Positions 9,816 to 13,161 of a stretch of DNA of 40,933 nt are shown here, in pieces. The stretch is taken from IMG/VR virus record IMGVR_UViG_3300042939_000312, positions 1 to 40,933 of that record; one strand, 5' to 3'. Numbering within the stretch: position 1 is the stretch's first letter; each line of letters begins with the position of its first letter. Below the pieces are notes generated by a model, which searched no databases, was not told where the DNA came from, and saw only the letters and a program-made list of their open reading frames with translations. Source of the DNA: a virus. The position numbers and the translations under genes were made by a program.

Positions 9816-9941
9816 CCCTCCGAATTACTCCCATAGAAATTCCCCCATGCGCACATTGTAATTCACACCAGCAAAAATACCGGCAAAAAAAAGAGTGTTT
9901 TTACTAGACGAGCTACTGCTGACCTGTGGTAAAATCTCAAA

Positions 9942-10371
9942 AAGAACATGCGCCCCATACGCCAGAGGTGGGGGAAACAACGCATAAGGAAACTACTCGG
10001 GAACAAAAGGGGTCTGCTGAGTGCTCCGACAGGAGTAACAAAAGTAGAAGGTGAAAACTGAGGGTTTGCCGACTTGGCCCTCCCCCCGCTTCTGGTGGTT
10101 GCCGCGAAAGCTGCCAGGTAAAGCGAAACTAGGAAGAGTGCTGGTGTCGAAGAGACGTGACTGCACAACGCCTATCAAGCTGCGAATAAACGAGGAGGAG
10201 AGTAACCCTTCTCACCCATACGCGAGAACACTACCCACGTGATTCTCGATGGGCGCATCCGCGGTCGTGCTGGCCTAAAGCCTCCACGAACTATTAACGA
10301 CTTACCCTCCCTGCTTGCCTCGCTGCAAGACCGGGGATCAAGTCGTATGGCCTGAAAATGGGATTTTCAGG
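9942..10371 (+). ncRNA. Candidate large structured noncoding RNA
   Basis: No convincing reading frame covers the gap 9816-10442, but the plus strand folds into back-to-back helices that I paired by eye. They are 9953-9957 with 9969-9973; 9993-9997 with 10043-10047, enclosing CTCC-GACA-GGAG at 10024-10035; 10060-10063 with 10079-10082; 10092-10095 with 10114-10117, enclosing GC-GAAA-GC; 10138-10141 with 10163-10166, enclosing 10146-10156; 10215-10219 with 10249-10253, enclosing CGAGAA/TTCTCG; 10265-10269 with 10285-10289; ACGACTT 10297-10303 with AAGTCGT 10340-10346, enclosing CTTGC/GCAAG; and a perfect 9-bp stem at 10351-10371. Purine-rich joints and a GNRA loop favour the plus sense. A possible -10 box, TAAAAT, lies at 9930-9935. 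The class is unknown to me. It could be a GOLLD-, ROOL- or HEARO-like ornate phage RNA. Confidence 0.55.
10351..10371 (+). terminator. Perfect 9-bp hairpin at the end of the structured region
   Basis: CCTGAAAAT pairs with ATTTTCAGG around a GGG loop. There is no U-run on either side, so it may be the 3' hairpin of the RNA candidate, not a standard intrinsic terminator. The 70 bases after it (10372-10442) are AT-rich and show nothing else recognisable. Confidence 0.4.
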
Positions 10372-10442
10372 GTAAATGATACTAAAACAGGTTGTTTCTA
10401 TAGCATTGATAGCTAGTAAGAAATGATAATTGATTGACTGAG

Positions 10443-10622
10443 ATGAAAGGTAATTCTGCAAAACGATCAAACAGACATAAGCGCAAAGGTAAAACGAAAC
10501 TGTCATTTATGGCCAAACGCCTGGCAGAGATCCTAGCTTGGGATATGTTGCCGAATCGTCCAGTAGACGAAGCAGAAGAGAGATTTAAATTGGCGCTGGC
10601 GAAAAGTGACCCTGCAATCTGA
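10443..10622 (+). CDS. Small basic peptide upstream of the HNH gene
   Basis: A 59-aa protein whose first 20 residues are strongly basic (KRSNRHKRKGKTK), followed by an amphipathic helical part (RLAEILAWDML, DEAEERFKLALAK). The ATG at 10443 is chosen over an upstream TTG at 10434. No strong ribosome site is visible. It overlaps the downstream HNH gene by 17 bp, so the two are probably co-translated. The basic N-terminus could bind nucleic acid. No family was recognised, and it could be spurious. Confidence 0.45.
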   Translation: MKGNSAKRSNRHKRKGKTKLSFMAKRLAEILAWDMLPNRPVDEAEERFKLALAKSDPAI

Positions 10623-11082
10623 TCAGATCAAACAGTGCTTTGAGTGTGGAGAGCCAGCAAGCTACAACCACCACGTAGTCCCAGAATCATTAGGCGGTAC
10701 AAAAACAGTCCCACTATGCGGCTACTGCCACCCAAAAGCTCATGGCGAAAATGGGTATTGGAAGACTGGCGACTTGGCTAAACAAAGACTCGCTAAGCTT
10801 AGAGCTAACCGCCAATGGACCGGAGGTCACGCACCATACGGATATAAACTAACAAGCGACCGTCGCCTAACCTGGATTCCAGAAGAATGGCAGGTGGTCA
10901 AAACAATCCTCATCTGGCGACTAATGGGTGTGCCGTTTCGCAGAATCACCGCTCGGCTAAATGAGCTGGGGGTAAAAACTAAAAGAGGTGGCGATGTTTG
11001 GGAGCGCTGCACTGTAAAGCAAATCGTTAGACGGCGGGGGAAGAAAACGTGGCGAAACAAAAAGACGAGAGCGCCGCTATAA
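10606..11082 (+). CDS. HNH-type zinc-binding nuclease fused to a recombinase-like DNA-binding domain
   Basis: A 158-aa protein with a GTG start. The N-terminal half has an HNH/zinc pattern: C11-x2-C14, NHHVVPESLGG (H22, H23), then C38-x2-C41-H42 and H46. The C-terminal half (about 74-142) resembles the 'Recombinase' DNA-binding domain of large serine recombinases: GGHAPYGYKL, IPEEWQVVKTILIWRLMGVPFRRITARLNE, GVKTKRGGDVWERCTVKQIV. No catalytic serine-recombinase domain is present. It is plausibly a homing-type endonuclease whose C-terminal domain reads the DNA target. It lies on the plus strand inside the leftward late block, directly after the structured RNA candidate. Confidence 0.8.
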   Translation: MTLQSDQIKQCFECGEPASYNHHVVPESLGGTKTVPLCGYCHPKAHGENGYWKTGDLAKQRLAKLRANRQWTGGHAPYGYKLTSDRRLTWIPEEWQVVKTILIWRLMGVPFRRITARLNELGVKTKRGGDVWERCTVKQIVRRRGKKTWRNKKTRAPL

Positions 11083-11342
11083 AAAAATAGGGCGGAGTTA
11101 GGCATGGGTCTTAATTAAAGTTGATGTGAACGTCGGCGAATCTCCACCCCCACTCCCCCCCCCTCTACCTGCCTGCATGTACCCGCCAGCCTATACACTC
11201 GAGCTTTTCTCCACCTACCCACACCGATAGGGCGGGCAGCCGGGCAGTGACGGGGTATGGGCATGGGTATCAGGCACGAGCCGATGGCACGAGCCGAAAA
11301 GGGGGCAACGATTCTAAGGGGTTATGTTAGTTTGACCGATAA
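11083..11342. other. Intergenic region with C-tract, clustered G-tracts and 13-bp tandem repeat
   Basis: No gene is visible. The plus strand carries a C-rich tract at 11141-11163 including nine consecutive C. It also has six G3-4 tracts at 11230-11232, 11234-11236, 11242-11244, 11252-11255, 11259-11261 and 11265-11267, which fit a G-quadruplex pattern. GGCACGAGCCG is repeated exactly at 11273-11283 and 11286-11296. Lying next to a terminase-like HTH gene, this is a candidate packaging (pac/cos) or regulatory site. Confidence 0.5.
11273..11296. repeat. Tandem GGCACGAGCCG repeat, 13-bp period
   Basis: Two exact 11-bp copies separated by AT, within the G-rich intergenic stretch. The arrangement looks like a pair of protein-binding sites. 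Confidence 0.7.
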
Positions 11343-12258: not shown

Positions 12259-13161
12259 ATGCATAGTTCTGACGATACTAACACAAGCGCCAAGGGTGAC
12301 AAGGCAACAGTCTACGAGATAATCACCGAGCGCATAATCGAGCGAATAGAAACAGAAGGCCGGTTGCCCTGGAATAAGCCATGGATCGATGGATTCGCTC
12401 GTAACCTAGTTAGCAAAAAACACTACAGGGGGTCAAACGTTTGGTTGCTTAACATGGCACCATTCACAAGCCCCTATTGGCTAACCTTCAAGCAGGCAAA
12501 AGAGCTAGGCGGATCAGTTCGCAAGGGTCAAAAGGGCTGGCCGGTAGTTTATTGGAATTGGTTCGATACTAAGGACAAGCTAACAGGCGAAGACAAAACC
12601 ATTCCGGTTCTTAAATATTATACCGTCTTCAACCTCGAACAGTGTGACGGCATCGAAGCCCCTGCAAGCGAATCAAAGCGCATGAATAGCGACGAGAGTC
12701 TCGAAGCGTGCGAGCAGGTGGTAAAGGCTATGCCGAAGCGACCGGAGATCAGGCACGAGAGGAATGAAGCTTTCTATATGCCCCGGTTCGACTATGTGAA
12801 CATGCCCAAAAAGGAAATGTTTCACGATGCGCCTAGCTACTATCACGTTCTATTTCACGAGTTAACGCACGCGACTGGGCATGAGTCGAGGTTGGGTCGA
12901 ATAAAGGGGGATGCCGTACTAGCTAAGTTCGGATCAGAACCGTACGCAAAAGAGGAGTTGGTCGCGGAGTTGGGGGCCTCGTATCTCTCAGGCGTGGCCG
13001 GTATTCAGGCGACACAAGAAGACAACTCGATTGCCTACCTTCAAGGCTGGATCAAAGCCCTGAAGAATGATCCAAAGCTTCTGGTGCAGGCAAGCGCACA
13101 AGCGCAAAAGGCTGCTGACTTCATTCTGAATGTGAAGTTCGGCGAAAAGGGTGAGGAGTAA
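12259..13161 (+). CDS. ArdC-like antirestriction protein with zinc metallopeptidase domain
   Basis: A 300-aa protein. The N-terminal ArdC-type ssDNA-binding domain spans about residues 15-130 (LPWNKPW, RGSNVWLLN, WLTFKQAKELGGSVRKGQKGWPVVYW, LKYYTVFNLEQCDG). The C-terminal metallopeptidase domain carries HELTH (H200, E201, H204), TGHESRL and a downstream E237 in EELVAELGASYL. ArdC proteins protect incoming DNA from restriction. As the first gene of the rightward unit it would be made early, which fits. Expression is likely set by the operator array and leader hairpins upstream. Confidence 0.9.
   Translation: MHSSDDTNTSAKGDKATVYEIITERIIERIETEGRLPWNKPWIDGFARNLVSKKHYRGSNVWLLNMAPFTSPYWLTFKQAKELGGSVRKGQKGWPVVYWNWFDTKDKLTGEDKTIPVLKYYTVFNLEQCDGIEAPASESKRMNSDESLEACEQVVKAMPKRPEIRHERNEAFYMPRFDYVNMPKKEMFHDAPSYYHVLFHELTHATGHESRLGRIKGDAVLAKFGSEPYAKEELVAELGASYLSGVAGIQATQEDNSIAYLQGWIKALKNDPKLLVQASAQAQKAADFILNVKFGEKGEE

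Follow-up and report, generated by a model that had tools for sequence, protein, structure and literature searches.

Introduction

To our knowledge, phages encode few large structured RNAs, chiefly GOLLD and ROOL, and no function has been assigned to any of them. GOLLD and ROOL, the function of which is not known, form RNA-only, homo-oligomeric cages (PMC12286853). In HEARO systems (Rfam family RF02033) the structured omega RNA of IscB precedes an HNH-containing open reading frame (ORF) on the same strand, and nuclease genes have been reported at the limits of segments that phages exchange (PMC10448857). Here we describe a locus with a likeness to each of these in a 40,933-base virus record (IMG/VR IMGVR_UViG_3300042939_000312; 'the window' denotes this whole stretch), where a non-coding stretch of ~430 nt is followed on the plus strand by ORFs for a small basic peptide and an HNH protein. 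Our analysis points to a new phage RNA machine, elaborately folded and lying outside the known RNA families: with a probability of roughly 0.6, the stretch is a free-standing, promoter-driven non-coding RNA (ncRNA) gene of a new family with two forms, A and B, exchanged as a cassette, with an unrelated HNH gene of the homing type downstream.

Like GOLLD and ROOL (PMC12286853), the candidate is a large, elaborately folded phage ncRNA with no known function or protein partner. Unlike them, it is 425–465 nt long (theirs are about 600–850), adjoins terminase genes, comes in two exchangeable forms, has no tRNAs in the window around it and no match in Rfam. The comparison with GOLLD and ROOL made in an initial annotation of this stretch holds as an analogy and not as Rfam membership. 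That annotation had also proposed an Infernal search against GOLLD, ROOL, HEARO and introns; our Rfam covariance searches with the window and its relatives, at the gathering cut-off and at E up to 10, gave no credible match, be it to the GOLLD or ROOL models, to RF02033, or to group I or group II introns. An intron is also rejected on layout, the RNA being intergenic, opposite to both flanking genes and directly behind a promoter-like region, and interrupting no gene. We found no tRNA or tmRNA match in the window and no description of this RNA in the literature.

Results and Discussion

A non-coding stretch at a fixed place beside TerL

Relatives were gathered by HNH and TerL searches of IMG/VR, and a TerL identity of at least 66% was found in thirteen contigs: that of the window's own virus (L010) and L011–L022. 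L013 and L014 are the same at the locus, leaving twelve distinct RNA sequences, all from IMG/VR, nine of them form A (L011, L012, L013/L014, L015, L017, L018, L020, L021 and L022) and three form B (window/L010, L016 and L019). All thirteen contigs share one layout: TerL and a gene of ~113 aa, both on the minus strand, followed on the opposite strand by the promoter-like region and 425–465 nt of non-coding sequence. An HNH gene comes after this stretch in every contig except L016, and a putative TerS gene (minus strand) is next in the contigs long enough to include that region. In the window, the plus-strand island is bounded by the minus-strand TerL and 113-aa genes and by a minus-strand helix-turn-helix (HTH) gene, the putative TerS, so that the layout described in the initial annotation – a basic 59-aa peptide and an HNH/recombinase ORF amid terminase-side genes of opposite orientation – stands.

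Exact-pattern scans for each form over all of IMG/VR gave matches confined to these contigs, and direct DNA searches of phage and plasmid records gave no match. Neither form was found in the distant TerL relatives (L023, L036–L062), some of which (L036, L037 and L045) have gaps of 400–500 nt; when a third form was sought in the same set, nothing resembling A or B turned up, nor was the RNA strand consistently favoured by fold scores.

Covariation in both forms

The case for a structure beyond chance is made by covariation, which we saw both in the window's own form, B, and in the form-A relatives at the corresponding locus. For form A, RNAalifold yielded 102 pairs, 39 of them with double-sided compensatory changes (17.7 ± 2.5 in shuffled alignments); 96.7% of cells were paired (87.7 ± 0.6 when shuffled, 32–41% when slid), covariation was 0.330 vs 0.152, and 0 of 500 shuffles reached these measures. 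The three form-B sequences yielded 124 pairs, 25 of them doubly changed (9.2 ± 2.5 when shuffled, with no shuffle equalling this), and 94.3% of cells were paired (39–43% in slid controls). The structures were derived from the very alignments tested, so that the slid comparison is inflated, and the shuffles ignore relatedness; despite these limits, the covariation is distributed over most helices. In both forms, compensatory changes exceed shuffled and slid controls, as in a structured RNA family.

Folding of a single sequence adds less. Positions 9936–10370 fold at -156.1 kcal/mol, with z-scores against shuffles of -3.39 on the plus and +0.40 on the minus strand, and stop codons occur in every frame (6, 6 and 5), leaving no credible gene; a decayed coding region is rejected. 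However, the z-scores of the other members are mixed, from -0.8 to -3.8, and some members fold equally well on the other strand, which makes single-sequence folding alone weak evidence. The initial annotation had described about 430 nt without a gene as a structured RNA and had proposed a covariance analysis over homologous phage contigs; the fold, the stop codons and the covariation found in both forms bear out this description, and the stretch is, as far as such comparisons tell, a real structured RNA.

The consensus fold of the RNA strand is more stable than that of its complement (-212 vs -194 for form A, -227 vs -209 for form B, a gap of ~18 kcal/mol each). The conserved pairing could also serve the DNA, for example as a packaging or replication site extruding hairpins, with no RNA needed: the reverse strand folds too, albeit less well, and a C-rich tract is nearby. 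Yet the long-range, multi-helix pairing, the invariant G-U pairs, the GNRA-type loops and the pseudoknot fit an RNA, as does the conserved promoter-like region at one end, and we consider a DNA site most improbable.

Predicted architecture of the RNA and probable kinship of its forms

The features of the locus are collected in Table 1. A conserved promoter-like region precedes the RNA in most members and was aligned across loci, the window closely resembling L022 through the -10 box though the RNA behind it differs. A consensus promoter scan did not list the region, because its -35 element is weak and its spacer is 19 nt.

Table 1. Features of the RNA locus in the window
Feature	Position	Strand	Remarks
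Probable promoter	9905..9935	+	-35-like TAGACG, 19-nt spacer, -10 TAAAAT at 9930-9935
Probable form-B structured ncRNA, ~430 nt	9942..10371 (ends approximate)	+	z-score, covariation, relatives at the same locus
Predicted 5' domain	9948..10001	+	H1, H2 and pseudoknot
Predicted 3' long hairpin, ACGACUU...AAGUCGU	10297..10346	+	Hexaloop CUCGCU at 10319-10324
Predicted terminal hairpin, CCUGAAAAU GGG AUUUUCAGG	10351..10371	+	Perfect stem in the window; no T-run
ORF, 59-aa basic peptide	10443..10622	+	Inside the exchanged stretch
HNH nuclease fused to serine-recombinase DNA-binding domain, 158 aa	10606..11082	+	Pfam, PHROGs
3' edge of exchanged cassette, CTGCAATCTGATCAGATCAAAC	10612..10633	+	Identity of window/L022 and of L019/L020 resumes here

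In the 5' domain of the window, helix H1 pairs AUGCG (9948–9952) with CGCAU (9981–9985), helix H2 pairs CCCCA (9953–9957) with UGGGG (9969–9973) around an 11-nt loop, and the CCAGAG of that loop forms a pseudoknot with CUCGGG (9996–10001; 5 of 6 pairs). L016 and L019 re-pair both H2 (CCGUA/UACGG) and the pseudoknot (GUCGGA/UCCGAC) using different bases, and have a hairpin of other bases at the place of the terminal hairpin. A scan found no intrinsic terminator after the RNA.

Forms A and B cannot be aligned by sequence, the RNAs of the window and L022 being 63% identical where shuffled sequence gives 64%. They seem to have an order of elements in common: a short stem encloses a 5–6-bp hairpin with an 11–12-nt loop, positions 5–10 of which pair just downstream as a pseudoknot (GGUAGU/ACUACU in form A), and the 3' end carries a long hairpin whose hexaloop is of the CU(A/C)G(U/C)U type (CACGCU in L018 and L020). 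A covariance model built from the form-A 3' hairpin alone found its best match in 901 nt at window positions 10308–10339 on the plus strand (12.2 bits, E = 0.0085) and matches L016 and L019 weakly (7 bits). Both forms have the 5' hairpin-pseudoknot in the corresponding position, with the proviso that its descriptor is loose (~4 chance matches per kb). Forms A and B are probably of common descent and thus one family.

Form A also has a covarying direct repeat, in which a four-letter block after CCUCAG recurs after CCUAG 76–81 nt away, flanking the 3' hairpin (for example, L017:1125–1210, minus strand). Across the nine sequences the two blocks change together (UCAU, UCAC, UGAR, AUGA, AUGG), matching in 35 of 36 letters; 8 of 200,000 permutations were as good, the related sequences not being independent. 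No complementary partner was found within the RNA, and possible explanations are protein-binding sites or an alternative pairing.

Exchange of the RNA forms

The window and L022 resemble each other up to and including the -10 box, are unrelated in the RNA, and become similar once more from CTGCAATCTGATCA, where the HNH gene starts. The 3' edge shows the same pattern in L019 and L020, identity resuming at the same sequence. DNA identities (in the order TerL, 113-aa gene, RNA, HNH) are 82/83/63/79% for window–L022, where the RNA value equals the shuffled baseline, and 87/88/61/77% for L019–L020; for L016–L019 they are 71/71/90% (no HNH value), and for window–L019 72/64/74/65%. Form B is carried by three separate lineages of the TerL tree, in which supported branches force three changes of form. 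From the identities and the tree it follows that the RNA is exchanged separately from the genes beside it; the forms are, by these comparisons, swapped between related phages while the HNH gene and the flanks stay. The motif CTGNAATCTGATCANNNCAAAC at the HNH start (window 10612–10633; the CTGNAATCTGATCA site) has two copies in L020, around a different basic peptide ORF.

The 59-aa peptide shares 46% identity across 43 aa with one encoded by L019, also a form-B carrier; no counterpart was found in L016, and the peptide has no match in Pfam or PHROGs.

A place that is fixed beside TerL in all members, with the terminase genes on either side, would suit a component of the packaging motor, and the packaging RNA of phi29, structured, 174 nt long and encoded by a packaging double-stranded DNA phage, is a precedent. 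This RNA differs in length (~430 nt), in the type of phage and motor, and in that its form changes without a change of TerL. It is the last point that makes a packaging RNA less likely: the form switches while TerL DNA stays 82–87% identical. In addition, distant TerL relatives lack the RNA, which runs opposite to the late genes, and the window's portal is P22-type; phages of this type package using TerS and TerL and are not known to need an RNA. Taken together, we regard a role in packaging as very unlikely.

Two natural alleles in otherwise similar genomes amount to a ready-made genetic experiment on the role of such RNAs, and this RNA combines strong covariation, small phages, a fixed place and a mappable promoter-like region.

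The HNH gene as a neighbour of the RNA

The 158-aa protein matches Recombinase (E = 1e-7) and HNH (E = 0.0044, below Pfam's curated cut-off) in Pfam, and PHROG 95 integrase (9e-15) and PHROG 1271 HNH (2e-4) in PHROGs. Pfam finds no RuvC or RRXRR domain in it, in agreement with the initial annotation, which had noted the lack of an IscB-like RuvC. The same annotation had taken RNA, peptide and HNH gene for a single island recalling HEARO/IscB and had proposed checking whether RNA and HNH co-occur in related phages. All the parts are present on the plus strand, but they do not hold together: L016, a 30-kb contig, keeps the RNA and has no HNH gene anywhere, and the HNH family occurs in dozens of phages without the RNA. 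A wider scan found 80 HNH loci, most in other phage groups and some adjoining a NinB-like gene, and a profile search found neither RNA form at any HNH locus outside the group. By this distribution, RNA and HNH gene do not form a single unit.

Could the RNA nevertheless guide the HNH protein, as in a RuvC-less relative of HEARO/IscB? The order of RNA and HNH-containing ORF on one strand is that of omega RNA and IscB, and, among PDB entries, the HNH part weakly matches the HNH domain of an IscB (E = 0.084). Unlike IscB, the 158-aa protein lacks RuvC, RRXRR and an arginine-rich part and carries its own serine-recombinase DNA-binding domain; the lack of an RF02033 match, the separate occurrence of RNA and HNH, and the exchange of RNA forms while the HNH gene stays, so that the two do not coevolve, all speak against a guide. 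We give this explanation very little credence; an HNH gene beside an RNA need not mean an RNA-guided nuclease.

Alternatively, the RNA may act as an extended, folded 5' leader of an mRNA for the peptide and HNH, regulating its translation or processing in the manner of a riboswitch or ribozyme. No terminator separates the RNA from these ORFs, which follow it immediately on the plus strand, and the HNH frame is downstream in nearly all members. A leader role for HNH is nonetheless made less likely by L016, the form-B RNA of which is 90% identical to that of L019 with no HNH gene in 30 kb; furthermore, the RNA form changes and the HNH gene does not. We consider a leader unlikely.

Because the RNA persists without HNH in L016 and HNH relatives occur without the RNA, the HNH gene is instead a probable free-standing, homing-type endonuclease gene neighbouring the RNA. 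The protein has a separate DNA-binding domain and its relatives are scattered over unrelated gene contexts, as expected of homing endonucleases. As with phage homing HNH endonucleases (PMC10448857), the gene edges an exchanged stretch next to essential genes; unlike in those cases, it is a structured RNA that is exchanged, and the HNH gene remains in the flank.

Proteins combining HNH with a serine-recombinase DNA-binding domain constitute a widespread phage family (loci L075–L144). In one phage group the HNH gene follows a NinB-like gene and a NinG-like region. A constant 348-nt gap before HNH in another phage group (L082 and others) was examined as an RNA and rejected, its context indicating the coding region of a NinB–NinG-like gene pair.

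A possible mode of action

Comparison across the thirteen contigs supports the base-paired structure, fixed position, promoter-like region, exchange of forms and independence from HNH on which the preferred reading, a free-standing ncRNA gene, is built. The RNA would be transcribed from its own promoter, the promoter-like region placing the expected start near 9942. Two diverged forms would occupy one locus and be swapped between related phages by recombination, with exchange edges at the RNA promoter/start and the HNH gene start. The RNA may work in trans through its three-dimensional fold, alone or with a protein – as an RNA–protein particle or, as in GOLLD and ROOL, a self-assembled RNA particle – rather than as a guide, mRNA leader or intron, and an HNH enzyme cutting near its own gene could help spread the neighbouring RNA alleles. 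A more specific and less likely proposal is that two functionally interchangeable RNA alleles of differing specificity move with the aid of HNH and are kept diverse by selection, for example for host-factor compatibility or co-infection exclusion.

Several points weigh against a free-standing, trans-acting RNA. Both its transcription, from sequence, and its trans-acting particle mode are things we infer. The reverse strand also folds fairly stably, so that the strand assignment rests on energy, promoter and synteny together. As no intrinsic terminator was found, transcription in the HNH-bearing phages may run on beyond the RNA, which would then be the leading part of a longer transcript, and the promoter-like region is least well conserved in L016, the sole HNH-less member and a single contig. 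Finally, the RNA sequences number twelve, all from one source, and form B amounts in effect to two lineages.

The carrier phages and neighbouring genes

Genes of the window phage include an integrase, a P22-type portal, a major head protein and TerL (Pfam, PHROGs). The closest TerL among isolated phages is only 23–25% identical to that of the window, and a host search by TerL in bacterial genomes gave a single distant Geobacteraceae contig from a metagenome-assembled genome (38%); the carriers are a group of unisolated aquatic phages. Between the HNH and putative TerS genes the window has a C-rich tract (11145–11166), possibly a packaging site, and C- or G-rich runs are also seen upstream of TerL in the distant relatives L023, L035, L036, L037 and L045. 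Positions 12259–13161 encode an ArdC-type antirestriction protein with a metallopeptidase domain at the start of the plus-strand early genes, and ORFs resembling it are present in L022 and L016.
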